A stretch of 64,000 nt of DNA from Ceratodon purpureus (lineage: Eukaryota > Streptophyta > Bryopsida > Pseudoditrichales > Ditrichaceae), in NCBI GenBank assembly GCA_014871385.1, contig CM026429.1, positions 8,557,342-8,621,341 on the forward strand, read 5' to 3'. The notes below the pieces were generated by a model, which was given only the letters and a program-made list of their open reading frames with translations, made no database searches and was not told the DNA's origin. Positions 19,501 through 60,417 of the stretch are shown in pieces. The number at the start of each line of letters is the position of its first letter. Position 1 is the stretch's first letter. A program made the position numbers and the translations under genes.

Positions 19501-20128
19501 GGTGGCATCACGATGTACTTAGTAAACTATAGTTGGGGGACTCTAAAACTAGAATTCCAATTCGACATACGTTTATGGCAGGGACGCTACTGGCATTGCA
19601 TTATACTTGGTGTAGGGTAGAAACTGAATTCCCCTCTTCTCTTCTCTTACGCAATAAGGGCTGCATGAATTTCTATCCAGACACCCCAGGTCCATCTTCG
19701 TCGCTGGAGTTCAATTCTGCCAATGTAGTAAGGTCATCGGGTTAGAATCCGTACTGTACAGGTGAACAGTACTTGAAAGAAGAAAAGCACACGAGTATTT
19801 CTAATTTGGAATGAATTATCTTGTGAATGTACCTGCTTCGACTCTGGCACCGACGTCATTTGAAGTACCCGCAGCGTTGTCGTTTCTTTTCTTCGAAGTA
19901 CCTACACCGACGTGGTAACCTTGATTGTTAATTCAGAGTTACAATTCAGATGTCCGAATCTTCGATTCAGGACGACTATCATTCCAGGCACATGTTCCGA
20001 AAGTATCCTCTTCGAGATATCCTTACAATTAACAAAGGAAATGACGGTACATGCTACTAAGATTATGTTATATGTACCATTGACTCTTGGCGGTGCTTCA
20101 ATTGCTATGCTCTTCCTTTTACGCTAAT
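16553..20128. other. Long stretch with no supportable gene
   Basis: 16.55-16.85 kb is the protease promoter side, with a GA-rich tract (16704-16721). From about 17.0 kb the composition resembles the transposon land to the right. The many short frames on both strands have no recognisable motifs. It may be the outer arm of the CACTA-bearing element or older mobile DNA. Confidence 0.4.
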
Positions 20129-20818
20129 CTAATTCCATCGAATACATTCAATGACGCCAAGGATATCAGAGTAGGATGCGGGGAAGGGAAATGTACGTGG
20201 AATGCGCTGCGATTTGCCGTAGATCGGGCGGTCAATCACGGTGGTTGGCTTCGGGTTCAGATCACGACGGATGTCGAACTCGGGAACATGGTGCCCGGGA
20301 AAAGCCTTGTACTGCCGATTAATATTCCAATCATCTTCTGCACCTTCTAGTTCAGCTTCTCCTGTGTTTCCTCTTGAAGATCCCTCGCCCTCAGGGAGTT
20401 TGCTCTTCCAATTGTAGATGTCATACTTCCCCCGATGGCACTGCTTAAAAGCAAAATCGGCCCAGTTCACAAGGTACCCTTTTTTCTCTGCAATGAGCCC
20501 ACGGGCGAAAGCAAGTCCCACCACTTTCGTTGACGGGAATGGTCTCTGGTGTGTTGCCCTGTACAGATTCTCAATTCTGCGGATCATCCTTGGGCTCTCA
20601 CTCCAGCCTCTACGGTTCATCTTGAACCCCCCGTGTGTCTTCTTGCCCCAGCGACGGATGCAGTCTGCTTCGTTCGCGATTACCTTCGGCAAACAGCACT
20701 TCTCTGTTTCGCGGATCCCAGGGATAAAACCGCGATCGTTCAGGCCGTGCTCGTGGTGGAACCAGGGGACAGTTGCGTAGATGATGGGCGTGTACACCTT
20801 CTCCCGAAGTGAAGCCAT
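20129..20818 (-). CDS. Hypothetical protein, ~229 aa
   Basis: I take the ATG at 20818 (MASLREKVYTP) inside a longer open frame, because the N-terminal extension beyond it is low quality. The product is basic and aromatic (YATVPWFHHEHGLNDRG, GWSESPRMIRRIENLYRA, LVNWADFAFKQCHRGKY) and ends in an acidic to Arg-rich tail. It looks like real coding sequence in length and composition, but I recognise no family. Position and orientation (3' of the CACTA transposase, same strand) would fit an accessory or captured ORF. Confidence 0.4.
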   Translation of the reverse strand: MASLREKVYTPIIYATVPWFHHEHGLNDRGFIPGIRETEKCCLPKVIANEADCIRRWGKKTHGGFKMNRRGWSESPRMIRRIENLYRATHQRPFPSTKVVGLAFARGLIAEKKGYLVNWADFAFKQCHRGKYDIYNWKSKLPEGEGSSRGNTGEAELEGAEDDWNINRQYKAFPGHHVPEFDIRRDLNPKPTTVIDRPIYGKSQRIPRTFPFPASYSDILGVIECIRWN

Positions 20819-21195
20819 TGTGGGTGCGGCCGAATGTGTGTTGCTTGCGGTACTGTAAAAAACCTCAATCAGTGTTAGATAACACATTGAATTTACAATG
20901 TCCATAATGTTCGAATTCCTATCTTCGGAACAGAGAGTGTACAGTACTCGAGGATTACACCATGACCATGATCCTCGGATTGAGGTAACCCACTCGTACG
21001 AGGGAAATTGGAAATCACAAATCATTACATTATGTACGTAAACAGAGAAACGGTACTGTAATAAATATATGACGACCGTGTCACACTCAAGAGCAACGAC
21101 GTTTACAACAACCGAGAAGTCCATAAATGGAAACGTACGACTTCACCCTATGAACCCCAGATCACTCTCCTCTCCCGAGCATCAACGATACGACT

Positions 21196-21520
21196 AACGA
21201 CTTCAAGGACGGTAATCCACGGCTGATGACACAGAGGACATGGCTACGCCCACAGAACACAATTGTGAACACGCAGTTCGCACATGAACGTGTTAAAGAA
21301 AGAGACAAAAACAACATGACAGACGACCACAGCTGGAGATGAATCATACTGTAGAAATGAGGATTAAGGCAACCATAACCATGACAATCGTTACAGAATG
21401 AAGTGAAAACAGTATAATACTCCCTAACAAAAGCAGTTCTCTCTTCATGGACATCGTTTGCGGATTAGCACGCACAACTTCATGGACCTAATCCCCGACT
21501 GATGACACATATCAGAAGAC
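21196..21520. repeat. Diverged ~30-bp direct repeat, two copies
   Basis: The segments at about 21198-21235 and 21478-21512 share ACTTCA-GGAC-TAATCC-CG-CTGATGACACA and lie about 280 bp apart. They may be subterminal repeats of a mobile element. The rest of 20.8-22.1 kb has no clear gene. Confidence 0.4.
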
Positions 21521-22159
21521 CTCGCACACGCAATACTCATCAGAGACAGAGCTTCTAGGAAATCGAATAAAACAAATCTCTCCGAAGGGACGACGGTATC
21601 AGAACCTACTCCCAGCGTCAAAGATGTAACCCGACTGTGGCGACAAACAAAGGGACCATGACGGTAAGACATACACTGCGAGAGAAAGACTTGCAGACGC
21701 ACCCCGAACCTCCTGTGTAGGAACCCGGATCGAATGAAATGGCGAGAGCTTCATTGCAACCGTGCTTCTTATACTCTCCAGTACGTAGGCACCGTCTGAC
21801 ACTTCCCGGGAACTTCACATCGATTGAAATGAGGAACAAGACGTTCTGCGGACCTCTGATGATGATAAAAACACCCAAAAAGTTGCTGACAGAACCGAAT
21901 TCGACTGAAAGTTGATGTTCCGCACCTTATGATTATTACGATTTCGACTGCAGTTCTCGAACATGTTCCGCCATTACGCGATGCATCATTGAAATTGATG
22001 GGGGCAGTCCAACATTTTGGACAGAACATCTCCCCCACTCGCAGCCGTCTCGCGATGTGAGATTTACTGGAGAAGAGGAATGTCTGCATCTGTGGAGGTC
22101 CCGTCATGTGAGACAGGTGCATCCAAATGTGTTGGATTTCAATAGCGCCAGTGACGGTT

Positions 22160-22738
22160 CTACGCGCGTTTCCGAAAGCCGCCTCTCCAGTGCATAGTCC
22201 ACGGGATCTTCCTCTCCAGACGATAATGGACGAGGAAGCGCGAGGAAGCAGTGAGATCGCAAATCCCCCACGGACACTGCACCTCCACATTCTGAGAGAG
22301 AAGGTTCGCTATACCGTAGTCTGCAATATGTCCGTGCCTGCTACAAAGAACAGAGGAGGGTTGTTCACATTGAATGTTTAGATTCGTAAGAAATTCGTAT
22401 GCATTGACGATGCGATACTCCTCAAATATAATGTTCGGATGAATCGAGAAGTGAAAATTGGGTACCTCATAAGGTGATTGATATGGAGCTTCCTCGGCTT
22501 CTGTAGCCCCCCCAGGCTGTGACGCTGTAGAATGTAAGGGAAACCCATGAGGAGGCTGCAATTCGGTTTGGAGATGAGGGGCCGTATCTCTACCGGGTAC
22601 CCTGTGCGAGAGCATTGCTGTAGTTCGGTCCGGCGAGGTCGCGCGACAATACCGTCGCGGTCGGTTGCGCTTGCGGGACTTCACGTAAGCAATTACGATT
22701 CCCATCGAAATGTGCTTATTCACCCACTCATTCGACAT
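22160..22738 (-). CDS. Hypothetical ORF, 192 aa
   Basis: An ATG at 22738 begins MSNEWVNKHISMG. A basic segment (VKSRKRNRPRRYCR) is followed by a Pro/Gln/Ser-rich linker and a hydrophobic C-terminal half. No recognised domain. It could be one exon of a longer transposon-borne gene or a chance frame. Same strand as its neighbours at 20129 and 25121. Confidence 0.25.
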   Translation of the reverse strand: MSNEWVNKHISMGIVIAYVKSRKRNRPRRYCRATSPDRTTAMLSHRVPGRDTAPHLQTELQPPHGFPLHSTASQPGGATEAEEAPYQSPYEVPNFHFSIHPNIIFEEYRIVNAYEFLTNLNIQCEQPSSVLCSRHGHIADYGIANLLSQNVEVQCPWGICDLTASSRFLVHYRLERKIPWTMHWRGGFRKRA

Positions 22739-23923
22739 GTCTGCGGAACCAACATACTGCCGTCAAATTTTAATTTCGTATAGTTAAGCCGAATGCACTT
22801 TCACTGAATGAAGTAGGATATAGGGTTCCATTATGCAATGTTCATTTTCGCTATTTGTTTAGGGTTGAATGGGGAAAGACAACTTCCTCTCTTTTTAATG
22901 AATTGAGTACATGCATTTTCGTTACACCAGGGAATGACCTCCACCGGATTTATTTATACCTTCCAGCGTGACAGAAGAAGGCTGCGCTTGAGGGGGGAGG
23001 GGGAAGGAGCGTGATCTGCTGGGTAATTCCGAAAACGATATAGCCCACCTCTGAGCCGGAGGTAGCCATTGCACAGAAATCCAAGTCGGTAAACATTAAT
23101 TGGTAAATGAGGCTTTCGAAGTTCATCTGTTACTCTCGTGTTGATTACTTATACGTATCACATAATACTAACGCCAACCTCTTCATTGAAGACAGAGTAA
23201 ATCAACTGAGAATTAGAAACATAGAATTCATACTCACATGCAAGAGTAATCACCTTGTCATAACTACTCACACGTACCGACACAGTCCCGGCATGTGGAA
23301 GGCAGTCTGAATTGATCTCCATGGGGCAAGTAACTCCATGTCCACCCTGTATAGATTAGATAATACCTCACCGTCACAATGAATTCAGGAATCTGAGTCC
23401 GTAATTGAACTGCTGTCGATAAGTGTCCTGGTTGTGGTATATCATTAAGGTTATCTGCACAAAGTCGTTCACGACTCCTACGGAATACATATCCGGTGAG
23501 AGTAGGCTATTTCTTGATTTAAAATCATATGCAATGGTATTAAACACTTGAAGGGGTTCAGTTAGTGCCCTCCGTACGCATTATTAATCTCATTATAGTT
23601 AGTCAATTATACCTACAATCTAACTCCCTGTCAGTCATACGTCGAGTAGAATCCCGCGGCTGTAAAACCTTCAGCAAAAAGCGTTGAGCAGACGGGATAG
23701 AGACGATAATATGAATACTAGAAAAAATCGTTGTCTCATTCCACCATCACCAGTCACGACTGCAATTCATATGAGATTCCCTGATATAAATCATCTCTAA
23801 AGCGCCAGGAGGAGAGTCAGTGAGTGATTAGAAGGAGATGCTACCGTTCTCAGTATTCGCCCAGTTGATGTCGGAGCTGCAATTGCGGTATGTTGAGGAA
23901 CATAACAACCTTGGCCTTTTGCT

Positions 23924-24845
23924 CTACTGGATGGTGCCATTCAGTGGGTTAGATTGGTCACGGTAACGAGCCAGATCCTGCAGTAGGAAAACCAGGTTAG
24001 TGACATGATCATCTTCGAGAAAAAAAGCAAATGTGTTATTAACAGGATGAGATTCATGATGCAGGGGTAGGCTCTAACCTCTGTCAAAGCGTAGACAATC
24101 TGCACTGTTGGCCCAACTGGACTTCCCCGGCGCATAAACTCAGCATCCTTGAGAGTGTAAAGCATGGGAATGCCTGTTGAGAGCTCAAGTTCGATGACCT
24201 CCTTCGGTGTGAGCTTATCCTAGTACATGATGATAGCACGCAAGGAATTGCCATGGGCTGCGACCATGATGTTCTTCCCACCTTCCACCTCTGGAACAAC
24301 CTGTTTGGTTGACATACCATCACTGTGGTTCAGAATCTAGCTCTCCATGGACGGTACTCATGAAAGCAACTGAAGAGTAGACTCTCGAAGGGTAGGGTAG
24401 ACGGTGGTTTTGGATTCTTACAGTCTCCACGAAATACTTGACAGCACGCTGTGCACACATCTCTAGACTCTCTCCATTGGGAGGAGGGATGTCGTAACTC
24501 CGGCGCCACTCTTTCACTTTATCGGCGCCGAACTTGTCTGCCGTTTCTTGCTTGTTCAAGCCACGCAGTTCACCATACCTGCATACCAGGAACAACAAAG
24601 TACACATACACGGATTACTTTCTTCTATGGAGTTTGACATCCTTCGAACCATTCAGAAGTGGCAAGACAAAGTCTACTAGATTCACATGTCACAACCTTA
24701 ATTGGACTCGGATGCGAAGTGATTGAAAAGCAACAGATGCACGTCAAGGTATCGTATCTCCTTCAACAGAGTCCGTTATCTGCAACTTCTGCGTTCATGA
24801 TGCTTCGACACATGCCACCAGAAGGACCCAAGTACATATGACGAC
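23924..24845 (-). pseudogene. Phosphoglycerate mutase (cofactor-dependent) 3' fragment
   Basis: Exons with retained introns are readable: 24578-24422 ([36 protein letters not shown]), 24300-24079 (AAHGNSLRAIIMY, LELSTGIPMLY, RRGSPVGPT) and 23977-23924 (DLARYRDQ, stop). A poorer upstream piece near 24740-24840 resembles the CRAQMTA segment. These are hallmarks of the chloroplast/bacterial-type dPGAM of glycolysis, including the second catalytic His in AAHGNS. One in-frame TAG replaces a conserved Leu after IIMY, and the N-terminal half, with the first catalytic His, is missing. Introns show it came from genomic DNA, not retroposition. It lies just 3' of the CACTA transposase, on the same strand. 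Confidence 0.82.
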
Positions 24846-25120
24846 TGGATCCTGAAAAGAACATTAATGGAATATGACTCTGTTGTCTGAAACTGTGACT
24901 GGAATCCACTAAGTACACATAGTCATTGACCTCTTATCGTTGCAAATCCATTTAGTTATCCTTGTGCTTTCCTTATATAAAAATCCACATCATACCAGGT
25001 CGACTGCAAATACATAGCATCGAAGCATGACGCGTCGTCATGTAACAGATGATTACTTCAGTGCCTTACACATGAATCACTCCACAGAAGTCACTTTGAA
25101 TACTACCAATGACTGACGAT

Positions 25121-28100
25121 TTAGTGCATTTCGTCTTCTCCAAAATCACCGTCATCGTCCTCCAAACCGTCTACAAAATCAGTGTCCGCGTAAGGGGCTT
25201 CCTCTCCGTCGCATTCCTCTCCCGCCATAACATGTTCGACCTCTGTCCTCGAAACTGGTTCAGCATGACCGGTCCATGCGCGATTCATGTTCTCTCTTCT
25301 GTCAATGCCGGACATGGTAGTAGCATCAATCCTCCCAGCTGCGCTTAACGTCTGTCCCTCTGACTCCGAAGTTACACGTCTTGACCGGGGTTCTCTTTGG
25401 CGCACGACTTTCCACTCGGTTTCATTGACATCACTGACGAAGTATACCTATACAGAAGAAGTCTACCTTCACTTAGAGAGAGAAATACGGACTTCTACTA
25501 CGGCGATGCTTACCATTGTGATAGGAAAGTAATACAACATAAACAGAGCCGTACCTGCTGGATATGATTTGGAAGAACATAGGGTTCTACGTCGGGGCTT
25601 TGTCTCGCATTGTATTTCAGTGACCAAAACCCATGCTCGTCCTCACGCATAGTTCTAGCACCTTCTTGATTAGGTTTCACCCATGAGCACTTAAGCGCTG
25701 TGAATTTGTGTGCCCCGTAGTCGACATGTACAATGTCCCGAATAATCCCTACGTAATTCAAAGATGCCTCCACAGGGTTGCTGTCTGCTCTTGAGGACCT
25801 ACACTCCTGAGTAATAATTGCAGCTACACCAGAGTCGAAGGATACATGTGACCTGCCCTGCTCGTCATCCGTTCTAAGGTGGTACCCGTAGGCCCACATC
25901 GAATTATAGTGTTTTACAACCGGTGTTGGCAACCTCGACATTGTCTGCAACGAGATGTCCGGGTTTAAGCCATCTCGGACCATGGATTTAACTCGTTCTT
26001 TCAACCAGTCATTGAAATATGGAAACCGTCGGCCTCTTCTTGCATCATGCGCGTCCCGTGCTAGACTGTATTCACTGCACAGACATGATTCAGTTTTGCT
26101 TCTTCCCAATTCGCTACAAACTGGAACCTAAAATTTTAAAATTCAGAAAACGGAATTAGCCACATCTACACAGGACTGCCGGGTATCTGTAAGACAGTTT
26201 CTCCCGCAGAGATGTTGCTTTCTATGACTATACCGTAGTTGGCAACTGGATTATGAAATAACATTGTCTACATGAAGTGTGCCTAAAAGTATACTACAGA
26301 GTGCAAGGTTTCAGGGCGGACCTTAAGTATGGAGCAGTTATTATGTTGTGACGAATTATGAAGTCGTGCAGCTGAAGCAGCTCCCCATGCTCCCATTCTC
26401 TCTCTTTTGGCTTACCTTCGAGTACTTCACCCGCGTCCTTCTCCTCCTCCTCCATGTCCCAGATAACACGAGCTAACCCTGGGTATAATCTAAAATGCTC
26501 TGTTACAAAACCCAAAGCCTCCTCGTACATGTATCCCATGGCTATCAAACCTTCCGGTCTGGCTTTGTTCCGTATGAGGGACTTGAGATGACCCAAATTT
26601 CGTTCAACCCCATACATCCACCTTGAGTGTACTGGGCCACACCAGTATAGTTCACGAGGAATATGCACGGTCAAGTGAGGCATGACGTTCCAGTATCCTG
26701 GTGGGAAGTGGAGTTCAAGTAATGAAAGTGTTTCCGCTACATAGTTCTGTAGGTCTGTCATTCTTCTTCGGTCGATGACCTTTTCACAAAATCTTTTAAA
26801 ACAATGCGCAAGTCTGATAATGGCCACGCGAGGGCCTTCTGGAAGTGAAGACCGCAGAGCCACTGGGAGGAGTTCTTGAAGCAGAACATGCCAGTCGTGG
26901 CTTTTCATGAATTGTAACTTCTCTTTCTCAAGGTTTACTAGTTTCTCGAAATTTCCACAGTGCCCGGATGGTGTCTTCACACCTCTTATAGTCTCCAGAA
27001 CCAGCCTCCGCTCATCGGGGAGGAGTACATATGGAGCTCTTGGCTTTAGGTAATTCTCGCCGTCACCCTGTCTGACCATATGTATCTCGTCCATGACTCC
27101 TGCTGCCTCGGCATCTCTTCGGACAGCCACGGTGTCAAGTTCACCTAGGAGAAACCCCATCGTTGTAGCGGCCACATTTTTCTCGATGTGCATCACATCG
27201 AGGGTGTGCCTAACAGGGAGGTCCTGAAGTGCGATTCAGACATTCACACCGTACAAAGTTAATGTACTATACTGTTCATAAGAAAGGATATTCCCAATGA
27301 CAGTCAGTCAGGAACTTCTCCCACAGCAGACATTACTCCGTTCTAACGCGGGTCATATCGAGTCACCTAATATCTCCTCCGCCAACCCAGATCGATAATA
27401 ACCGTGACGCCTTCATTTGTATAGTACCAAAGCATGTGGAGCAGAATAGTTACAGACTGAAACACTGCACTTCATTCAGTTCAGCCAACGCACTTCATTC
27501 AGTTGTTCAGAACTCACATGGAAAATGTGATTCACTAGGAATACTGACTTCGGTTTCTCATTTGTCGAATTACAAGAACCCTACAACTGTATCTATGAAC
27601 TCTGATTACATCGCACAGTCCAGGCGATTCCTCATATAAACATAAAGCGAACGCAGTGACTGTCTAATCTGTCACTGGAACATCGAAATACGGTACAGTA
27701 ATATAGGACGGCCACGAAAGTTATGCATTGACGACCGGTAATTCTTTTCCACGTGAGTTACGCAAAATCGCGTGTACTACATATGGGAGGGTCACTCCCG
27801 AATAAGGAGCAATTCGCATACAGACATATGGATTATGATTATTAGAACTGTATTCATGGTTACTTAATCTCATCGACGAGTGCAGTAGTATCGCTCACCC
27901 AAACATCACTCTACAGCAGATATCATGCATGCTATTCAATATAGCCATATGCGGCGTGCATCCTGCATTCTAAGGAACTTATTTAGTCTTCGTTACTGAC
28001 GTAGTAAGGGGAAGCGTCACTGGAGAAATATAAAGAGGGAACTCCGGATGACGCATCGACATTTCAAACAAACACTGGTTACGATAACACACCTTCCAGT

Positions 28101-30307
28101 AAGGTAGGCGGAACAAGCCTGACACGCGCTTAATTCCGGTTCTCCTAACCGGGTCTGACTCCGGTCGAGTGCCTCCTTCCCGAAGCCACCGCGCTCTTTC
28201 CTCGCCCCATGCTTTAACTTGGGCACCGGTAACTGGTTCAGGCGCTGGACGATGCTCTCTTGAGCCAAACCTAGCCACGTCGTCGCGTAGATGATGGCCA
28301 TCGTGTAACCATCTTCTAGCACATCCGCAGAATACGTTTTTATGCAAAGCCTTCGAACGTCGAGAGCGGAAACCCTCCCCACAGACCGGGCATCCCACAA
28401 ATCCCTTCGTCACACATCCCGCCATCATACCGTACGCTGGGAAATCCCCTATGGTCCATATGAGCATTGCCTTCATCACGAAGTGCGAAGATTGTTTATA
28501 ACATGCCGCATCCATGCAGTAGACGCCGTAGTTCCACAAATCCAGGAGCTCGTCAATCAATGGGTCCAAGTAAACATCAAACTGCTCCCCCGTCACAGAC
28601 TTCGGTCCAGGTATAAGAATGGCCAACATCATAAAATACTTCTTTGTGGACAGCCATGGCGGGAGGTTGTAATTCAACAGAAGAACGGGCCACATTGAGT
28701 ACACATTCCGCTTGTCACCAAAAGGATTAATGCCGTCTGCAACCAGAGCCATCCTCACGTTGCGGTCTTCATAGCCAAACTGTTCTCTGAAACGACTGTT
28801 TATGTATTTCCACTGCTTGGATTGGGATACATGCCTCATCAGATTACCATCGAAGTTCTGCATAGCATGCCATGTCATGGCTAATGCCTGTTCCAAACTT
28901 GCGAACATCCTCTTTAAACGCGGAGTCACTGGGAAGTACCGTGCAACCTTCTGCGGCACTTCGGACCGTCCTGCCCTTCTCTTCCTTGGAGCCCTGCACT
29001 TGGGGCAAACCCGTGCATCAGTCAGTTCGTGTCTGAACAAGACGCAGTTGTTGACACATGCGTCGATGCTCTTGTATGAGTGTCCGAGTTTCTTCAAGTA
29101 CTGCGAGGCATCGTGATAGGATCGAGGAAGCGAGTTCGGCTGGGGAAGAATGGTCATGCTCAAAGTGCGGAACAACTCGTCCATGAAGGTATCTGTGCAC
29201 TTGTGGAGTTTACCTGAACTTAGCAAAAGGTAAGTCGCGCCCATCATAGAGTGCTCTGCTCCAGGGAATAGAGGAGTCGCTGCTGCTTCCTCCAGCGCGC
29301 GGAATGCTGCTGCGTCGTCATCGTTACCATCTCCCCAGGACAGTGACTCTTCATCCGAATCATCGTCCAGAACAGCGTCCGAATTTGCAGTGGGAGGTGA
29401 CACGGGCGGGTGCTCCTCAACGCCTTCCATATTATCCACGGGATGTTCGCCTGTTGATGCAGCGGCGTTTGGTGTTCCTTCACTGGCGACCTCTGGGCCC
29501 GTCGGAGGAGGGGGCTCCTCTGCAATTGGAATTGCGTCCTCTGCTCCATAGTTCCCCGTAATATTTACTGGCGATGCCCTTTCATCTGCAGTACCTACAT
29601 CTCCATCGCGACGACATTCACCATTGTCATAGTGGCCACGTACACCGTCACCACCAGCATATGTTGGCTGTCCATGTGCGTCACCTGCGACTTCCCTCTC
29701 CCGTTCGAGAGTACCCCGTGCCGTGTCTGCCTCTTCCCGTATCCTGTCCCCGAGACCAATTGTCTCTATCACCATCTGCTGGAGGTCAATCCCGTGATCA
29801 AGTTGATGTAGTTGTCGCCTGTTTGCAGGATCGGTTGATTGAGCGCCATAGTACCAAAGAATGTGGTCGTCCCATTCTTCGTCGGACTCATCAGATTCAA
29901 AACCCTAGAGAAACCATACAACAAATTATTGTATTTCATTACACCGACAGTGGAATGTATATTCAAGTCGCACACCCAGACAAGAATCACCATCATTGAG
30001 TTCGACAGACTACGGAGAATCCACGGAGAGAATATGAATTGAGCAGAAATGACCATTGCAACGATACACTTATACTTACCTCAGAGGAACCAAAAAACCA
30101 TGGGTGCCGTCTGTTTGCTTGAAGACAACGACGGTAATTCACCAAGATTTTCCTCGAATGTTGCTCCTTCATACACCATTTGCAGGGGCAATACAGCTTC
30201 GATATCCCCTGACTCTCGGCGTGACGAATTTCACGGTCCAGAAGTTTTGCCTCACGCGCACGGATTCTCCTTTCGCTGGGACGTGAACGCCTGATAGTCG
30301 CCTCCAT
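25121..30307 (-). CDS. CACTA (En/Spm) tnp2-type transposase, 1262 aa, intact
   Basis: Five exons join in frame: 30307-30080, 29904-28093, 27223-26322, 26074-25555 and 25447-25121 (3789 bp). Domain order is that of plant CACTA transposases. An N-terminal transposase-associated domain (YCPCKWC, residues ~39-45) comes first, then an acidic linker. The tnp2/Transposase_21 core follows (CPKCRAPRKR, YFPVTPRLKRMF, VALVADGINPFGD-like segment, NYNLPPWL, DFPAYGMMAG). A DUF4218-like region comes next (HTLDVMHIEKNV, KSHDWHVLLQELLP, HFPPGYWNVMPHL, GPVHSRWMYGVERNLG). Last is a DUF4216-like C-terminal part (SFDSGVAA, VHVDYGAHKFTALKCSW, YFVSDVNETEW). No stop or frame break remains with these junctions. The enzyme would cut and paste CACTA elements in the nucleus. 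The exon 3-4 junction (AG|GTCCGC to TGCAG|TGAAT) is the least certain. Confidence 0.92.
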
Positions 30308-30969
30308 GACACCTACAAACACCAGCGACAATGAGCGATATGTAGAACTGGAAAATCAACGGCGTTTTGCACTTCCCTGCCAAGATAGCAATAATTCAAC
30401 CGTCATAGAAACCCTAGAAACCATCCCCGTGAAATCACTCTGATACCGCTCCCTCCATAGTACACGTAGGCATCGTCGTTATTGAATTGACATTACAAAA
30501 GTTGTGTGCTTCATACATATACACTACGACAGGACTCGGCAATCGCCACAACACAGGAATTGGAATTCAAAATATGGACGGTCCGCTGTTGCAAGTACTC
30601 TCGGGTCATTTTAATGCCTGACAGTTTCTCAGGCCGGCATTACGAACATACCTCTGCACAACGTATGCAGAGACAGTAGACACTGAAGGTGCACCGTCAT
30701 CGTTCTCCATGGTCGTTGGCCTCAGACAAATAGATGTGAATGGGCAGTACTCACACGAAAACCTACGTTCCAGAACAGCTTACGAAATACACAGGAGGGT
30801 TCTGAAATAGCATTGCTTTATTGGCACAATTTTCGTAATGACATTGTGAACCCTAATTCTGTGCACTCTGCGGTAGTAAGGCAATATGTAATGGACAAAT
30901 TACTACCGTAGAAGGAGCGCTCTGTTCCCCTTCACCTATGCTCTCAAATTACATTGAGTCTATTGCGAA

Positions 30970-31722
30970 TCATGAAGAAGGGTTCCCTCTGGACACCCTC
31001 TTCACTATTTGTTCTCCCAGTGATGCAGGGTAGAACCTTTTAGAAGTTGAAGAGGACGCCGTGTCCACCAAATCGTCTTCAGAACTGAGGACCGGACCGT
31101 CTTCGCTGACGTGGACTTCTGTCTGAAGAGGCGCTTGTACAGAGGTATTTCTGGCGGGGACGCCGATGCTGTGGAAGTCTATAATCGTATTCCCATCATC
31201 TGCTTGTTGAGCGGGAGTTTCGGGCTGCTTATGATTTGCATTTAGCGCTAGCCATGGCGGAATTCCCAGGGATTCGTCGACACTGAAGCCCTCGCTGTCC
31301 GTCCCGTCGGGATAGTAATCCATGTGGAGTAAGCGACTGTCCACGCGTTCTAGGTCATCCAGGAGTACCTTCTGCGTGGGAAATATAAGAAAGCATTTGC
31401 ACTCTAATGATGGAGGGAACCTGTCCACGGAGGGACGGCAATTGCATCTCCACCACTTTTCTCTCATCGCAGCGTCTAGTGTGAGTGCTCGACTGCAGCG
31501 CCGCAAGAGCTTGCACTTGCAACTACGATCGTTCAGCCACTGTAATCTAGTGCAGGATATACATTCGCAGGCGCCGTTGCAAGCGTGGTGCGGCCCGTGC
31601 ATATCCGTCTCATATTCCATTATCGACGACTCAATCCAACGAGGCTGTCCATCGAAACGATCTCTCTGGAGAGTCCGCTCTCCGTAGAGGACATTTTGGT
31701 ACGTTATAATAAACTCACTCAT
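30970..31722 (-). CDS. Cys-rich hypothetical protein of the CACTA cluster, ~250 aa
   Basis: The frame starts at ATG 31722 (MSEFIITYQNVLYGE). It has a dense cysteine region (CNGACECISC, CKCKLLRRC, WWRCNCR, ECKCFL) suggestive of metal binding, then an acidic Ser-rich half (VSEDGPVLSSEDDLV) and a basic end. It lies 660 bp upstream of, and on the same strand as, the transposase. No family recognised. The segment 30310-30960 between them is non-coding. A splice donor-like ATG|AGTGAG near the start means the model may be incomplete. Confidence 0.5.
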   Translation of the reverse strand: MSEFIITYQNVLYGERTLQRDRFDGQPRWIESSIMEYETDMHGPHHACNGACECISCTRLQWLNDRSCKCKLLRRCSRALTLDAAMREKWWRCNCRPSVDRFPPSLECKCFLIFPTQKVLLDDLERVDSRLLHMDYYPDGTDSEGFSVDESLGIPPWLALNANHKQPETPAQQADDGNTIIDFHSIGVPARNTSVQAPLQTEVHVSEDGPVLSSEDDLVDTASSSTSKRFYPASLGEQIVKRVSRGNPSS

Positions 31723-32359
31723 CACTACAATTATCACTAACTTCCGGGAGGACAGAACCTTCTGCTCGAAAAAAAGTGGTGAGGGATATAGGCTATACTA
31801 TTGCAGTGACATGAAAGTTAGAGAGAGGACGGAAAAAGAGAAGTCCATACCTTCTTGTTGAAGGTGTTGATCCTGTAATAGCGTGCATTGGAAAATAGGG
31901 AATCCGGGGATCAGAATTTGTACTCCATGGTTACTTATGGGAAAGTAGCTCGAATAAGACAAAATGTGTTAATGCGCGCACGCAATGCCGTCGAACTCCT
32001 CTGTAGTCCTAAGGGGCATTAGGGTTAGGAAGTCCGGATTTGGAACAGGTACCTGGGGACGTGCGCGTCGGTTTAGTGTCGATAATATCTCTCTCCACTT
32101 TGCAGCCGCCGTGGCCAGTATTTGTATTCTTTATTTGTTGTATTACCTTAACTCTTCTGCAAGAGGGGTTTCTATAATTCAACCGGAGGTCGTGTTTAGC
32201 ATCTGATTTGTCTTGAGAGCAGCGAATGTTTTGGTTTACCTGGCCGCCAGCAATAACTGTTGACAGGAAATTTATCTCTCGGCCGGCGAATCTGAACGGA
32301 GGTGGCCTTATCCGCCTCTTTTTCCTAGTCTAAACGCTGAGGCAGCAGCACAGATCAGC

Positions 32360-32943
32360 ATGCTGGCATGGAATGCCTATGTACACCTAGGAGGGCAGCA
32401 GCTCTGCGTGAAAGCGGAAGCCCCACCGGTAGTGGTAGGTGCGAACTTCAACTCAACATCTGCAGACACAGACATTGTGCCCCAGGTATACTTCTGCAAC
32501 CCTTGCCCTGTCGTCTTCGTTTGTAGTTGACTGTTTAGAATTGTCTGATTTTTGTTTACGCGTGGGACATCATGCCTTTCCGAGGATTCAACAACCCTGA
32601 AATCTGGTGCGTCATCATGGACTTGGATTCCGATGACAATCCTGTGGAAGGAATAAACGGAACTCTTTTCATGCACCCTGTGGAGTCCGAGCCGGTGATG
32701 CAAGAGGCATTCTTTGGAGAGTTTCCGGACTCTATTGTACTCGGGGAGATTTGGCCCCGTCTAATGCGAGGAGAGAACATAATAGAGAACTTCATGATAT
32801 GCTCGTCTCTCAGGGGAGTATGCACGGCGTGGTACAACTTCGTAGACGAGAGGACAGAGTGGCGTGACGGAATGGATGCGTTTAACCTTTACCTGGAACA
32901 GCGAGATAGCGAATCCTCAGGGGACAAAGACAGTGATTTCTGA
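32360..32943 (+). CDS. Small F-box-like protein 1 of the CACTA cluster (two exons)
   Basis: The C-terminal exon (32539-32943) reads FPDSIVLGEIWPRLMRGENI, then RGVCTAWYNFVDERTEW. This F-box-like pattern (P-x-x-hydrophobic, IWPRL, then R-x-VC-x-x-W) recurs at 35398-35919. A first exon, 32360-32485 (ATG, ends CAG|GTATAC), joins in phase at TTTAG|AAT to give 176 aa; the single-exon alternative starts at 32572. F-box proteins recruit substrates to SCF ubiquitin ligases. The match here is by motif pattern only, so that role is inference. Acidic, with a DSESSGDKDSDF tail. Confidence 0.5.
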
Positions 32944-33612
32944 GAGCGCAACATGTTCATGTCATAACGCAATTTCGCGTTACCCTAACAGAATTAGGAG
33001 CAGTAATATGTTGAACATCGTAGTGAGGACATGCACCACCATTGAGTGATGCTGATACTTTCCTAGAGTAGTAGACGCCACTTAAGACACAATAGATCTA
33101 TATGCCTCCCCCAGTGGTAGAGGATTATGTAGCAGAGCGTTGGAATCCGGGTGGCACGAAATACGTTGTGCTTTCAGAGAAAATGATACCGTTCATTTGG
33201 ATTCATCGTGACCTTTTAATATACTGCACTGTGCAATTTAAAAACGGAATTGAGTATCCCTGAAGTCTTTGTGTTATTTTGCTTCCCCTGTTCTATCATG
33301 TTAAATATCCGAGAACGATTTTTGGAAATGGAGGACATGTTCGGTGTTTAACCTGTTGGAAGTACGGGCGGTGGCAGGAGGACGCGCACACATTTGTATT
33401 CGAAGGTACCGTAGACTTCTCCACACACTGTCAGTTCGTCTTCAGCATGGACTCCAGTGGTTTAGCACCTCAGAAGTTGTCTGAGCAGGTACGCCCGCTT
33501 ACTCTCTCCTATACATTATACGGAGCTCTGCCTTTTCTCGTAGATCTTTAATTTCACTACTATTTTTCCTTCATATGAATTGCAAAGAGGAGACGGTTTG
33601 TCCATACCTTCA

Positions 33613-36600
33613 ATGACGCTCACCCTCATGCGATTTACAATGACGGGGTTTGAACAGACACAGAGGAGCTCTGCAGTGCCAGTCGTACCACCTTACTCAC
33701 AGCGTCCACTGTACGTCCAGCATTGGCCGGGCAGCATTTTGTACTCCGGCAACGTCTCGGAAGCGGGAACGGGCTCCACACTAAATCCCGTTCAGTACGT
33801 CTACTCAGGATACCCTGCGTCATCAGGGAAACATCCCCAAGATCAGGAAATCCATGGCCATTCACGGAGCACGGGTTCCCAGTCACTTGGACCGTCGCCA
33901 ATCTCCCAGAACAATGTTGGATTGCCTTTCATGGGTTCTTCAGGATTTGTAATGCCTCCTTCGCAATTTATTACAGCTGCAGCGCCGAGTGCAATGTCTA
34001 GGGACAGTTCCAGCACTCAGAGCGGAGGTTATAGTGGGGTGGCCGGCACACAGTGTTTCAATTCGCTCCCTCCCGTTCTGTCGAAGACCAGTACAGATGG
34101 AATTCGATGGCCGATATGGATGGGCAATGCGAATGTCCCGTTGGAGATGCAGACGACACCACCTTCAAGGATTGCCGACAGTCATACACCTGTGAAACCT
34201 GGAACAATAAATACGGCAGTAGACCTCGCTTCGGAAGATATTACGGCTAATAGAGGTGACCTCTGGCAGGACTCCAAAAGGACACGGCAAAGAAAGTTGC
34301 AACGACTGGCAAAGAGCAACTTCAAAATGAAACTTGGCGATAGCCCAATGAAAGTGCCTTGCACTGCATCTGGGGAGATAGAGGAAGGATACAGAGTCTA
34401 TGTGCACCGAATGTTTAGGGCCCAAGCGAGGAGATTTCTCAAAATCGAGGTGATAGCTTTTTCGGATCACCCCCCGGAAGACGTGCAAGCAACGCTGGAG
34501 CTCATTCGAATGCAGTTCGAATTCAACCCTCCTCTGCCAGACGAGGCGATATGCGATTACTTACAAAAAGACATGAGTGCTTGTAGGTACCAATGGAAAA
34601 AGTTTTGGCAGAGCACAGGTAGAGGGCAGAAGCATGAACAGTGTCCTGCAGAGTCTTTTCCATATCTAGTGAAATACTGGCTCACAGTCGAGTCTGAGGA
34701 GGAAAGCCGTGCTCTGGAGCATGAGAGAAGAGAAGTCCGGGCTGCGCGTCAAGTGAACAATTCGCGGGGGGAGACTTCACAGTCGATTAGCGCAGACACC
34801 TGGGACGTAAGGAATTCATATTTCATGTTATTGTTACGAAGCCTTACTGAAGTTCTGTCTGTGCTAATTTAATGCTCTGCCTGAAGGCCGTATACCTCAT
34901 CATTTTGGGCTTCCACATTCCTAGGACTGTTGTTAAGGGAAACTTGTCCACATCTTTTTGTCCACATACAATGTAATGCTTGACGGATATGTGGAGTTTG
35001 CAATTCTATATTGCAGCCCCTTGCACAGGATGACAGCCACGATTCCGTAATGTGGAACGACCTGGACCTCAACTCGGAATCCGAAACATTCGCAGGCCAG
35101 GCAGTATTCATTGGGAAAATCAAGGGGGACGTGCAGGTATGGTTCGAAATCCATTTAAGTATGCATGTCGTCTTCATGAAAGATCGGGCTCCCGAGAATG
35201 TCGGATGTGTGTGACGGTTATTAGGTAATGGTCTCTGGTATGTAGGCCTTGTCGCAGACGTCAATGGTCATCCAGTTTATTTCACACCAACATCCCCCTA
35301 TACGGACAGAGTTACTATTCCGTACGTACGAATGGACTTTGTGCTGTAAGGTCGGAAGGACCTGTTCGTAGTCATTCATACTGTCAATGTCGGAGGCTTG
35401 TTCGTGAAGTCCGAAATGTCGTCCGCTATTAGGGTATTCGTGAAGGCCTTGTGCATGTGTGTTGCAGTTCATATTTTCTACCCTCCTACTATGCTTCCAC
35501 CTGTTATTGTTGTGCTGGGAGCGTGGTTCACTTTGGGTTACTGTTCCGCTAAGTGTAGAGGGCAAGTCTCCACGCAGGATGAGTTTGGACAGGGTGCCAC
35601 TAACAGGAACTCCTTGAAAGCAAATGACATTGACGTCGACTGGGAACGTGTTCGTAGAATTCTGCTCCATGAGCCTACCACTTTCTCTTCCATTCCGGAA
35701 GACGTCATCGTCATGTGTATCTGGCCAAGGGTAGTGGAATCAAACAAGAAATTCGCCGACACTTGCAAAAGTATCGCCATAGCGAGAGAAGTGTGCACTG
35801 AATGGCGTGAGTGGGTAGCAACGGTACCCGAGTACCCCGATTTCGTAGAGTCCTGGGTGGAAGATCTATTACAGAAGGATAGCATGACGACCCATAGACG
35901 CCGTGATTTTTTCCTCTAGAGAAGTAGGACACACGATACGAGGAATATACCAGTTACTTTATCGAATGTACGAAAATCCATATTTAATGAAATGCTATTA
36001 CGTTCCCTTTACTCAGGCTGTAGCGTCGTTATCCAAACCCGCACTTGATGGAACGGTCTCTGCCAGTCGGGTAAGTCAGTAATATGAACTGTGCATGTAA
36101 TGCTGACCCCACGAACATGGAATAACCTGTACTTCTTATTGCGCAGAATGCCGGTGGTGTCGAATTTGGTGGAAGTCCACTTCACATCAAGAATCGCGTA
36201 GGTGGAAGGCAGGATGACGTCAACGGACACGGAAGTCCTGGAAGCGCTCAGGAATCGGCGACAGCGCCAGTACGAGGGTCCTTGGATTGGAACCGAGAAG
36301 TAGAGAGACGAATTGAATCGACCGCCACTGAAGTCTCATCCATGAACAAGAAGATTGACTATATAATCCAGAGGCTTATGCAGAAAGGTGGTACAGGGGA
36401 AAGGGACACAGCAAGAATGCCAGTCGCGGAGAAGAACAACGCGGCAGTACCACATCCACGTCCTACCAACAATAGTAACGTAGACGCTACCGTACATGAG
36501 GCATGTTCGGCGTCCGTTGTCTCCCATGAAATCGGCAGTGGCATCCACGAACGTGCGGAACCAGGTAGCATCTATGGTGGCCTATCCCACCTTCCATTGA

Positions 36601-37930
36601 ATGTCCCTTCACTTCGAAGCACTGATTAAGAGGTACTGAATGCAGAACATGCACTGTACTGAGGAAAGGGTTCCTGTAATGTCGGTGATGTTGATGTTCT
36701 TTACGCAGGTGGTGGATGTGAGTCGAGCGCTCAGAAGTGCCCAAAGATCCCCGAGCAGTCAAAGAGTACAGAACATCGAACCCTGCACTCCGACAACCCA
36801 GAACGGACTCATATGATACATATGGACTCGTGCGAACTAACACCTCCTGCTACGAAGAGAAATGAGAACTCCGGAGGCCGTTATAGTGCCATGCAAGTAG
36901 CGTTCGGTTCATTTGACGATGAGATATTGTGCACGCAGAGGCCGACTCTAAACACGGAGACAGGTGAATATGGCTTTACTGGGACTTTGTAAACAGTGAG
37001 ATTTTCTTTAAAAAAAAATGTCGCGAACAATCATGTGAGTCTGTATCGGTTTACACTGTCATTACATTCGTGGTGCTTGGTGTTCTGTTACAGAGGAATC
37101 CGATCAGATAGAACCATCCACGAAGAGACAACGGCTGGCATCAGAAACTCGTAAGGACGACTTCTTTTATTTATGTCATTTCAGGTGACGAACATGTACT
37201 CTGTATTTGTTGCCCCTAATGTGTGTTGTTTATGATGTAACGGAATCTGCAGGTGTTACCACGTCTATACAGAATACCATGGGACCGCCGAAACCGAAGG
37301 TGAGCGAGGTTGTTAAAGATGTTCATGGGGACGGGAAGGCAGTTGCTCCAGTGCGGGAGAAAAGCAAACGAAGAGCAAAGAAGCCTTCGAAGTATTTAGA
37401 GCATACACCCCCCTCAGAGAATCGCCCTAGAGTGGAGAAGGTACATGCACATTCTCTTAAAGCATACTTCTGTGAATCCAGTAATGTAGGAGCTCCGTTG
37501 CTGGACCGTGCACATGAAGTCCGTTTTTTTAATCTTATGAACATAGTCTGGAATGCGCTGTAAGGAATTTGACGAAAGTGAAGATTTCTTTTTATAGGCT
37601 GGTCCATTGCACCCCAAGCGGTATGTCTGGCTTCTGCATCCAGATCATCCAAATGAAACAATAGCTCTCGGACAGACCTCTTCGCATTGGAAATCCGGGA
37701 GAACGAAATTTGTTCCTAATGTCAGTGGTGTGCTCTGGGAAAATGGAATGCAACAAGTCACGGTTGAGCATGTCTACCCACAGTGGACACATGTCATACC
37801 GCTGTACCCTGACCAACAGCGTGAAGGACTGAAGACCATGGGGGACGTCCTGAAAGGAGACTACGCGGAGGATTCAACGATATTGTGGAGAACAAGATTT
37901 TTGAATTATGTGCAGGAGGCAAAGAAGTGA
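33613..37930 (+). CDS. CACTA accessory (TnpA/DUF8039-type) protein, 872 aa, eight exons
   Basis: Exons 33613-34806, 35017-35136, 36017-36070, 36147-36564, 36709-36963, 37094-37150, 37253-37440 and 37598-37930 join at GT-AG sites in one frame (2619 bp). The N-terminal third is Ser/Pro/Gln-rich. A basic, helical region follows (KRTRQRKLQRLAKSNFKMK, YRVYVHRMFRAQARRFL, ACRYQWKKFWQSTGRG, then a charged helix near HERREVRAARQ). This resembles the DNA-binding part of plant TnpA-type proteins. A coiled coil (EVSSMNKKIDYIIQRLMQ) and a nuclear signal-like KSKRRAKKPSK come later. The last exon (WLLHPDHPNETIALGQ, VTVEHVYPQWTHVIPLY) resembles the DUF8039-like C-terminal domain of CACTA-encoded proteins. 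Likely role: binding element ends and helping transposition. Exact family is from memory of patterns. Confidence 0.75.
35455..35919 (+). CDS. Small F-box-like protein 2, nested in an intron
   Basis: The open frame has ATG candidates at 35455 and 35491; the latter follows a hydrophobic stretch poorly (LPPVIVVLGAWFTLGYC). The C-terminal 85 residues read FSSIPEDVIVMCIWPRVV and REVCTEWREWVATVPEYPDF, aligning with the F-box-like part of 32360-32943. It lies wholly inside the 880-bp intron 2 of the accessory gene, same strand. It could be an independent nested gene or an alternative exon. Confidence 0.45.
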   Translation: MCVAVHIFYPPTMLPPVIVVLGAWFTLGYCSAKCRGQVSTQDEFGQGATNRNSLKANDIDVDWERVRRILLHEPTTFSSIPEDVIVMCIWPRVVESNKKFADTCKSIAIAREVCTEWREWVATVPEYPDFVESWVEDLLQKDSMTTHRRRDFFL

Positions 37931-40416
37931 TCAACATCGGCGTTCTGCAAGAACAAAATAGAATAACCTTACAGACATTTCCTGTAATTCCCGTGGCAAA
38001 TAGCATAAGAAGACTGACTTCGGGAACAGCGAACAGAGTGTCGTTTTGAAGCCATTCCGTAGAAGTATGAAGTCGTTGGAAACGTAGCTGGAGGTGAACA
38101 GAACTAAACAACTACGACATGAAATGGAGAATGTCCTCGCTGTCGACGCACAGAGCAGCCGATTGAGTCGAACAGTGGAGATTTCGTAGCAGACATTGGT
38201 AGGTCAGACTGTGGAATTGTTTTTCCTGTTTGTAGTTTCATAACAACTTAGGGTCCTCCTGAGGTAATCAGTACTCTGAGACCGTCCGTGTATTACCCAG
38301 ACATTCTCTTTAAATGTGGTTTGATTTCAGTAACTTTTGTATTGCTTATGGAGATCAGTCGTACATGTGCTGGATTGAGATGTCGGAGAATCATTACGCC
38401 ACTGCATATATGCACGTTGACAATGCTATCGGCATCCGTAGTGTCGATAATACGATTCGGTAATTATATTGTACAGTCGTAGGGATACAAATACCGCAGT
38501 ACGTGCTCGATTATCAACCGCACATATATGGATTTAAATTAAGCATTCCACGTGGTCTGAAAGAAGAATATTCCCCGTGCAATATAAGAGTATCGGAGGA
38601 ATAATCCATCTGGAAGAAATATTTAATCCATGGTACATTCCACGTCATCGACCGAATAATCAGGCATCGCCGGAAACATCTATAGATACAAGACACTTGT
38701 AACAATCCTGAATCAAATCTGAAATGTTATGTTCATGTCCTGAGACCTGAACCTCTCCGTGAAGGCCCGAATTGAAGGACCATGGACCTCACCATCCAAT
38801 GAGTGCGGAATAATCGGACGGTGGATAACAGAAGGACCCTAAACCAAGCCCTGGAATAAACGTTCACAGTTCAAAGTAATTTCAACTCTCCGAAGTAACC
38901 ACGTAATACAACGACTACAGATTACCGGGACGATGCAAGACGATGCAATCGAAGCCCTTCAATCGGCCTTTCACTTCCCTTATCCACGACGGAAATCAAC
39001 GCCGCCCCTCCCGCTGCAGCGGGCCTCGACTCTTGTCTGTTGTGACGCAATCGAACGGGTCTTTCCGCCCCTCCCGGAACCAGGCCTCTCGAGAAATATG
39101 GCGCCCTCTGATCCCTTTATACTATAAACAGGAAACTAAAACGACGCTTATTCTAGCAGTGCTCCTGAAGTAAGTAGTGCCGCTAAGAAATTCGTGTAAA
39201 GCTAGCCCTAAAATTCTAGTTGACTCCGTTTTCTTCTATCTACTTACTTAGATATTTGTGCAACCTATCTTCTATGAAGGCCTTGTTGATGATTAAACAC
39301 ACAAAGCTCGAAGCCTCGAGGATTAAGATTTCCTTCCCTACTCTTATGTTCTCTCAAGGTGGAGATAAACAGAATCTTCAGTTTACTTAATTATGATATA
39401 CAGTGAAGGGCGGAAATATAAGAGTCGTTTGAAGCAATACTTAAAGCCTCTGTAAATTCCATCTGATTCATTATGGTTGTTCATTTAAGAACATTTTTTG
39501 GAACGAACTTATACCTTTCCAGTGGCCATGATCAAATGTTTTCGTTTCAGAAGATGCACATTTCAGAAGGGTTGCTTCTGGTACCTCCATTTCAGCTAAT
39601 GAATTGAGGCTCACTTACCCTTGCTGTTGTGTGTACATCCCAGGATTTCCAGAGATCCCTGGCGTGAATGTTGGTGACTGCTGCAATTCGTGAATATGAT
39701 TGGCATGGTGTCTTGACGAGATGCATCAACAGTGGGTGGAAGATCCTGCCCTTTCGGAATATGACAATCACCAAAATTGGATGCTACCTAAAAATTCCGT
39801 TTTGTCGAAAGGAGCACCAATTGTGAGTCTCATCCCTCTGCGAGACATGACGACATGACCACACAATCTTGAGCCACATGAAAATAATTGTTGTAAGATA
39901 GAGAACTTGTTGCTGTCTCATCTGCAGAAACCGATACACGGCTTTGCTCATAACCGGAAACTGATCACCTCTACAACTTCAATGCATGTACCGGTGAATT
40001 CCTTTAGGTAGTAGACAGCTTAGAGCATCACAAGCACAAGATCTCAACATCAGTGCATATCCCTGATATTGATAAGTGTGTCTATCTGGGTGTGTGTCTA
40101 CCATGGCTGTGTGAGACAATTACTCTTGCAATCCGGGCTTCTCCGAAGGGGAAGAGTGCAGTGGTTGGCAATGCTTGTAAACTCAAAACCCTCATAACCT
40201 ATTTTGTCTACATTGGAGTGATTGAAATCTAAAAATCTGAAAGATGGTGTCGCTATTGCGGGGAGTGTTGCTTTTGCGCAGGCTTTGTTGAGGAGTGTGT
40301 TTCCGTTTCGCGCGGTCAGTTGAATGTTACGAAATTATATTGAGGATTGAAGGAATTTGGAACAGAATCCGGAGTGATCAGGTGTAGAGTTTTGAGGTTT
40401 GTTTCGGAGGCATAAC
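37931..40416. other. Intergenic; outer arm of the transposon, then promoter side of the PTRHD1-like gene
   Basis: No gene seen. It holds a GC-rich patch with a perfect 14-nt palindrome, CCCGCTGCAGCGGG (39010-39023), and a TATA-like TATACTATAAA near 39118-39128. From about 39.2 kb the composition shifts to that of host flanks. Confidence 0.45.
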
Positions 40417-58905: not shown

Positions 58906-59504
58906 AATAAAATGTGCAAGCTGTAGATTTTGAGTCCATAAGTGTCTCCGCGTGTGCAGGCTGCGTGTAGGAATGGGTGAGTCGCTCACCTGTGTGCAGG
59001 GTGTGTTCAGAGTCGTCGCTGAATTGGTGAGTCCACTACTTGCGTAGTACACATTCAGTTAGTTTTTTTTTCAAAAGTTGTAAAGTGCAGATCTAGAGTC
59101 TAACATCGTTGCTACGTTATTAGGCCGCAGGGAGGAATGGGTGAAATGTTAGCTTTTTAAAAAAAAAAAATTAAAAACTGTAGATTTAGTGTTAGAATCC
59201 TGTGTGCCGCTGTGTACTGCCGCTTTGTCTCGAGACTGCGGGGAGGAAGGGATAAGTCATTGAGGGAGATAGGGTGAGGAAGAAGGTGGAGGAGGGAGGA
59301 GCGGAGCTAGAGCTAACATGTTAAGGCGACGAGAATGGTAGAAGGGGAGGGAAAGCCTTGGCGTGGGGCTACTATTAGCCGCAACGAGGGAGGCCATTCT
59401 TGTCATCTTGTCATCGTATGATAACTAGGAAGCACATGATCACGATTTTGACAACCACAAGGAGGATTTGAGTTTTTTTGAACAGAAGAGGTAAAAGGTA
59501 GAGA

Positions 59505-59657
59505 CACCCATCCATACCCGATCAGCCACCCATCCATACCCGATCAGCCACCCATCCATACCCGATCAGCCACCCATCCATACCCAATCAGCCACCCATC
59601 CATACCCGATCAGCCACCCATCCATACCCGATCAGCCACCCATCCATACCCGATCAG
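59505..59657. repeat. Minisatellite, 7 x 22 bp
   Basis: The unit CCACCCATCCATACCCGATC plus AG is repeated seven times; the first copy lacks one base and the fourth has A for G (CCCAATCAG). The flanks 58910-59500 and 59660-60410 show no gene. There are no spacers, so it is not a CRISPR array. Confidence 0.95.
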
Positions 59658-60417
59658 TAGACTTCTCCATTTCCAAGAAGCTTTAAACTCATCTTAGAGA
59701 AGTTTCAAATTCAAAATTTAGGGAGATCTAGAAGAGAATACCAATCTAGTTGAATCATGTTGATTCTACTTGCGTTGATATTTTGATTGCTTTAGAAATG
59801 CAAGAAAGATTGTATAATATCTCTCCAACCCTTGTCATGCGTACATGACTTTGACCTCACCTTGGATTCCAACATCTCTAATATGATGAGTGAGGAGCTT
59901 GAAATTGCAGTGAGGAATTATTCCTGATTCAGTGAATGCGGATGTCAAATTGCAATGTATTTTGAAGATTGCTCACCGAAGGTTCTTAGCAGGGATGCCA
60001 AGCTCTCTCAGCTTTCTTCGGAGTCTATCGTTGCTGCCGCTGTTTGCATGACCATAATTCTCTTGGGCAAAATGAAAGGATTCATGGGCAATGCCATGTT
60101 CACAGCAAGCTTTGAACTGATTTACAAGCAATGATCAGCTGAACACTTGAAGAGAGGATTTGCAGGACCTGTGGAGTTGTGAATCAAATGCCCCTCAGGA
60201 TTTCAGTACTCGGAGCTGTTTATTTTAATGTATGCAATCTGCCATTCCGGATCCTCCATTGTTGCTCGCAGTTGGTAAATTAAGAAAGGGTAGTTTTCAT
60301 CTGCAAATGCCATGACTCTTGAAATGTCTGGCACCACTGCTAATTCCCGCGTCCATGTGAAGGTGCTAATTTAGGTCTTTTGGAAGCAGAGGTGGAAGGC
60401 TTAGGTATTACAGGATA

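Follow-up and report, generated by a model that had tools for sequence, protein, structure and literature searches.

The element and its genes

We have studied a stretch of 64,000 nucleotides of Ceratodon purpureus (Bryopsida; assembly GCA_014871385.1, contig CM026429.1), which we call the window. It corresponds to C9:8557342-8621341 of the 362.5-Mb assembly, whose contigs are named here C1, C2, C6, C8, C9 and C13; positions given without a contig are those of the window, and all family counts refer to this one genome. The window contains a complete CACTA (En/Spm) transposon, which carries two small open reading frames (ORFs), ORF-A and ORF-B, together with its transposase gene tnp2 and a TnpA-like gene. 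The products of ORF-A and ORF-B are related to each other and resemble F-box proteins. The main features are:

18842..39161, no strand assigned: complete CACTA (En/Spm) element, 20,320 bp, from alignment limits and termini
18839..18841, no strand assigned: left target-site duplication, CTC
39162..39164, no strand assigned: right target-site duplication, CTC
18842..18867, plus strand: left terminal inverted repeat, begins CACTG, 19 of 26 positions equal to the right end
39136..39161, minus strand: right terminal inverted repeat, begins CACTG on the minus strand
32572..32943, plus strand: ORF-A, F-box-like protein of 123 residues
32710..32883, plus strand: F-box-like core of ORF-A, residues 47-104
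35416..35919, plus strand: ORF-B, F-box-like protein of 167 residues from the first ATG, with a hydrophobic N-terminus
35683..35856, plus strand: F-box-like core of ORF-B, residues 90-147

The ends of the element were found by alignment with six other copies, using blocks of at least 100. Homology stops on the left at 18842 (copies in C1 and C13) and on the right at 39161-39162 (C1, C13, one C6 copy and C2). A target-site duplication of 3 bp is a trait of the CACTA family: here it is CTC, while TCT and AGA are read from the flanks of the C1 and C13 copies. The element has CACTG at both ends, the 3-bp duplication and a tnp2 gene (Transposase_21), all as found in CACTA elements. The initial annotation had described a CACTA transposon cluster in this place: the CACTA transposon is confirmed, and the cluster proves to be a single element whose ends are defined. 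An unrelated stretch at about 56.8 kb of the window also aligned with other copies.

That annotation was also right about two ORFs with a common motif, IWPR[LV] followed by R[GE]VCTxW. The two halves of the motif are IWPRL and RGVCTAW in ORF-A, IWPRV and REVCTEW in ORF-B. The tails, which it had described as acidic or charged, are of two kinds: acidic with Ser/Asp in ORF-A, charged and basic in ORF-B. The frame of ORF-B is open from a TTG at 35398, its first ATG being at 35416. From their sequences ORF-A and ORF-B are homologous: they match each other in BLASTP (E 1e-7) and their family profiles also match (E 1.1e-13, probability 98), each value coming from a single comparison. We reject a chance resemblance between A and B on these two matches and on the tree given below. 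The core pattern of the whole family is F..LP.diV...IWPrlm, about 20 residues, and R.VCr.Wr.wv. Outside the core there are other conserved segments, W.V.M..D.dg.P.E at the N-terminus of several A lineages and Y.DY.ESW in B. The N-terminus has a hydrophobic stretch (mean hydropathy of at least 1.7 over the best 19 residues) in 13 of 21 B proteins and in none of 18 A proteins.

Both ORFs had been placed between or inside the transposase and accessory genes, which are found as follows:

27979..29775, minus strand: main exon of the tnp2 transposase (PF02992, E 3.7e-63)
26294..27196, minus strand: DUF4218 exon of the tnp2 gene (E 3.5e-29)
25510..26109, minus strand: DUF4216 exon of the tnp2 gene (E 0.0016, below cut-off)
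33580..34806, plus strand: main coding exon of the TnpA-like gene; the ORF extends to 34872 and there is a conserved GT at 34807
35017..35136, plus strand: putative second exon of the TnpA-like gene, with a conserved AG before it and a conserved GT after it

ORF-A has indeed the tnp2 gene, in divergent orientation, on one side and the TnpA-like ORF on the other. On the plus strand the order is ORF-A, TnpA-like ORF, ORF-B and then further conserved stretches up to 37930. The location of ORF-B depends on a predicted intron: it is flanked by the conserved GT after 35136 and by a conserved AG before 36147, in three copies compared, which would put it within an intron of the TnpA-like gene. ORF-B may be a gene in its own right, or the TnpA-like gene may use it as an alternative last exon. 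The TnpA-like ORF is so called as a large conserved ORF with putative introns beside tnp2; a Pfam scan of it gave no family above cut-off.

Conservation of the pair among copies

The genome has at least 150 relatives of ORF-A (150 scored of 468 first-look candidates) and at least 68 of ORF-B (68 matches from 150 scored of 216 candidates). We also scored 108 of 2275 tnp2 relatives. Two other A-type proteins, from elements L051 and L054, were used as queries: 150 of 436 candidates were scored for the former and 150 of 482 for the latter, which gave 174 matches, of which 150 were used. The tallies of placement given below take all the matches listed for A-type proteins (queries ORF-A, L051 and L054), tnp2 and B.

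Nineteen elements were read directly, the one in the window and 18 others, and in 18 of them both proteins are found in open frames. The A frame is in pieces in one element (L042), and in another (L048) the B frame is shortened by a stop near its end. The pair is thus present in other copies of this CACTA family, a check proposed in the initial annotation, and the idea that the ORFs could be absent from all other copies is refuted.

The arrangement of the genes is also constant. Among the matches listed, 47 of the 68 B have an A-type gene 0.8-8 kb upstream on the same strand and 7 more have it at 8-28 kb; none of the 68 has an A-type downstream or on the opposite strand. Two of these 68 B matches coincide with A-type places and two are fragments of a single locus (C6:13991664 and 13991767). 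A divergent A-type is found at 3.0-4.6 kb from tnp2 in 85 of the 108 scored relatives of the transposase; in 8 it is found only at 6-20 kb and in 15 none was found. A same-strand A-type within 6 kb, or an A-type on the other side of tnp2, occurs in none of the 108. Neither A nor B was found for 15 of 64 TnpA-like matches, in a comparison of 64 of 104 such matches with 98 of 150 A matches.

Two families have an intact A gene in very similar copies. The L054 family (for example C9:5227533-5228075) has at least 62 copies with an A-type protein identical over 181 residues, 22 of the 62 on small contigs, which may be assembly duplicates. The L051 family has at least 22 copies with an A-type protein identical over 115 residues. 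These counts concern the A-type gene only; B-type has no part in them. Both families look like recent bursts. Near the copies of the L054 family there are groups of tnp2 and TnpA-like matches with equal scores.

C6, with 110.5 Mb and about 30% of the assembly, has 75 of the 150 scored A matches and 36 of the 68 B matches, as plain counts among the matches listed. We have taken C6 for a sex chromosome: the accessible part of a published description gives C. purpureus a genome of 360 Mb, with U and V chromosomes of more than 100 Mb each, about 30% of the genome (PMC8000587). The A and B matches on C6 may bear on how this chromosome grew.

Descent and selection

A tree of 42 cores, which has only 62 columns, places 21 A and 21 B in separate clades (100/99). 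The distances between elements measured on A agree with those measured on B (18 elements, Mantel r 0.887, reached by 0 of 9,999 permutations). The simplest account would be that a single duplication preceded the divergence of the elements and that the two genes have since descended together. A proteins of different elements have about 30% identity. We read A and B as ancient paralogues that belong to the core gene set of a CACTA lineage.

The ratio of nonsynonymous to synonymous substitution rates (dN/dS) was obtained between the element in the window and its copies in C1, C8 and C13; the values are rough, since several comparisons come close to saturation at synonymous sites. For these three copies, in this order, we have found 0.06, 0.08 and 0.13 in ORF-A, 0.10, 0.10 and 0.11 in tnp2, and 0.13, 0.13 and 0.18 in the TnpA-like ORF. 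ORF-A is constrained as strongly as the transposase. An adaptor picked up by the element does not fit these results, since both genes have long belonged to this CACTA lineage and A is under a constraint like that on the transposase.

A recent capture of a fragment of a host F-box gene, as in Pack-CACTA elements, would give a different origin to the pair. Host fragments have been found in CACTA elements (accessible text of PMC13317346), but here the pair is found in deeply diverged elements, in a fixed order and with one old duplication. Furthermore all the host-type F-box matches scored have at least 42.5 bits, much more than any A or B member scanned. We have set aside recent capture in view of the age and deep divergence of the pair; its probability is very small.

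Other conserved stretches of the element

The element has four other conserved coding stretches; dN/dS values refer to the same copies:

29993..30331, minus strand: conserved ORF directly 5' of tnp2, dN/dS 0.05-0.06 (C1, C8 and C13 copies)
37607..37930, plus strand: exon with the strongest conservation in the plus-strand gene, dN/dS 0.02-0.04 (C1, C8 and C13)
30970..31737, minus strand: Cys-rich conserved ORF between tnp2 and ORF-A, dN/dS 0.08-0.25 (three copies)
20129-21124, minus strand: conserved ORF of 331 residues, dN/dS 0.10-0.15 (two copies), without a match in the C8 stretches compared

The first of them is probably the first exon of tnp2. The second has the highest conservation among the coding stretches of the element that were measured, and the TnpA-like gene probably has its C-terminal exon there. 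Pfam scans gave no family above cut-off for these two, and no family for the Cys-rich ORF or the ORF of 331 residues. Elsewhere in the window there is a tandem array with a 22-bp unit (59480-59680) and an ORF on the minus strand (3094-4299), which we take to resemble the transposase of Mutator-like elements (MULEs).

F-box likeness and possible function

We favour the view that A and B are old core genes which code for F-box-like adaptors, able to divert the SKP1-cullin-F-box (SCF) ubiquitin ligase of the host. We give it a probability of roughly 0.56; the fold, the docking on SKP1 and the ubiquitination are predicted from sequence. Each protein would dock on host SKP1 through its F-box-like core and bring a client to the host SCF ligase. 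The client might be a host factor which limits the element, or a protein of the element whose dose has to be limited. Because the hydrophobic N-terminus was seen in B and in none of the A proteins measured, the two may differ in their site of action. A would be soluble; its N-terminal segment is conserved within lineages and its tail is acidic, with Ser/Asp. B often has a membrane-like N-terminus. The two would thus have different clients or different locations.

Several results support an F-box nature, although each test is weak. The F-box pattern (LP ... I-F/W ... VC..W) is present in the family. In a profile-profile comparison, a check proposed in the initial annotation, A/B match F-box with probability 91, and the real score is reached by none of 300 permuted controls in any of three comparisons. 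In Pfam, more B members touch F-box than any other family (14 of 21).

Other results weigh against our reading. The spacer between the halves of the motif is longer than in the eight F-boxes compared. All ten members scanned singly (7 B and 3 A) fall below the Pfam cut-off, the best scores being 18.2 bits for F-box-like (cut-off 24.3) and 15.6 for F-box (cut-off 20.5), and the three A members have no match at all. We class A and B only as F-box-like because they are below this curated cut-off. In the window neither ORF-A nor ORF-B has an F-box match in Pfam at E up to 10; the sole match of ORF-B is DUF3097_C (0.1). This family touches 6 of 21 B members, and its best E (0.0013) is lower than those of F-box-like (0.0021) and F-box (0.0064). 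Among A members the lowest best E belongs to DUF7730 (0.016, one member). A search of PDB sequences with both family profiles gave no F-box protein, only unrelated matches with E 0.38 and 4. The structure models of A and B have modest confidence. With Foldseek the sole PDB match of the A model is Fbw7, which is not significant (E 3.9, TM 0.30), and the match of this model to Fbs1 is weak. The B model gave no F-box match in Foldseek and VIA, only a mitoribosome chain, the VIA match covering residues 1-58, the hydrophobic N-terminus. Pfam scans found no recognised substrate domain in A or B: no WD, LRR or Kelch. Constraint is weaker in B than in A, with dN/dS of 0.36, 0.36 and 0.39 in ORF-B for the C1, C8 and C13 copies, and a ratio of nonsynonymous to synonymous differences (pN/pS) of 0.31-0.33 in its core. 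In a close C6/C8 pair dN/dS is 1.02 in B and 0.18 in A. The F-box-like nature claimed at the outset thus finds support in the profile comparison and the Pfam tally, but a clear F-box fold does not appear.

In another reading the proteins would have no kinship with F-box at all, being helical proteins specific to this lineage with a motif that is alike by chance. The modest models, the absent or non-significant structure matches, the lack of PDB sequence matches and the position of DUF3097_C as lowest single E among B members go in this direction. The permuted controls and the predominance of F-box among B members do not, and the only structure match of the A model is precisely an F-box protein. 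We judge this explanation unlikely, although it has somewhat more weight than any other alternative.

A helical F-box-like module could also be a structural subunit of the transposition complex, bound to the TnpA-like protein or to TNP2, with no role in ubiquitination. The genes are kept beside tnp2 and the TnpA-like gene, A is constrained like tnp2 and the similarity to F-box is below family cut-offs; but the conserved residues are those of the F-box pattern, and the hydrophobic N-terminus of so many B proteins would be odd in a nuclear complex. We find such a subunit rather improbable. Still a little less probable are decoys, which would dock on SKP1 without a client and weaken host SCF ligases, for example ligases that act on the transposase or in silencing. 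Such decoys would agree with the shortness of the proteins and their lack of a recognised substrate domain, with the presence of two genes in each element and with the very high number of copies in the genome. Against them, segments are also conserved outside the core, which points to a further partner besides SKP1.

Returning to adaptors that divert the SCF ligase, a narrower and speculative version, which we hold to be doubtful, takes its model from viruses. The adaptors of this CACTA lineage, as old as the divergence of its tnp2, would turn SCF on silencing factors (Argonaute, RNA-directed DNA methylation, chromatin), one of them soluble and the other anchored to membranes, as a counterpart of the polerovirus protein P0. 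If this were true, it could help to explain bursts of dozens of identical copies.

The presence of a conserved F-box-like pair in the element suggests, short of proof, that elements of this family steer the protein-disposal machinery of the host. If transposons do encode ubiquitin-ligase adaptors as core genes, there would be a testable route to escape from silencing or to control of copy number. The pair would also offer natural F-box variants, whose targets could reveal host proteins that restrain CACTA elements.

Comparison with known systems

To our knowledge few proteins of plant transposons act on the host: VANC, TnpA and captured Ulp1.

An adaptor carried by the element had been considered new. 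In agreement with this, our literature search, with most subscription literature outside its scope, gave no report of F-box genes as standard CACTA genes. The word F-box is absent from the accessible text of the paper on soybean Tgmt* (PMC2613891), of a survey of CACTA transposases (PMC4158355) and of a 2026 review of gene capture (PMC13317346); CACTA and F-box are both mentioned in that of PMC10625261, in unrelated places. The reverse case is described, host F-box genes that gained a transposase domain (PMC12062965, accessible part).

Other genetic parasites offer parallels, taken here from the accessible parts of the papers cited. They are analogies and give no evidence on the target. Polerovirus P0 is a viral F-box protein which drives the degradation of AGO1; a host protein, FBW2, is described with it (PMC9035678). 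P0 is likewise an F-box protein of a genetic parasite, and A and B may work in a similar way, but here we have a DNA transposon and not a virus. VANDAL MULEs carry VANC anti-silencing genes, some with an Ulp1 domain (PMC13317346), and VANC/KIU (PMC10398659, PMC5735166) are also extra genes of a plant DNA transposon; they differ by superfamily and by domain, and VANC acts on the DNA of the element. Fungal DNA transposons encode a TET/JBP dioxygenase (PMC12730594), again a gene of the lineage that could counter silencing, but theirs is an enzyme acting on DNA and not a ubiquitin adaptor.

The proteins themselves share with F-box proteins (PF00646, PF12937; SKP2, FBXW7, TIR1) the pattern LP...I(F/W)...VC..W and a helical nature; they differ by their longer spacer, a near-invariant IWP and the hydrophobic N-terminus of many B. 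As for the element, it is similar to the plant CACTA elements En/Spm of maize and Tgmt* of soybean (PMC2613891, accessible part) in its CACT-type termini, its 3-bp duplication, its tnp2 and its putative TnpA-like gene, and to Tgmt* also in its size of about 20 kb. It differs from them by two additional conserved F-box-like genes and by the divergent orientation of tnp2 and the TnpA-like gene.
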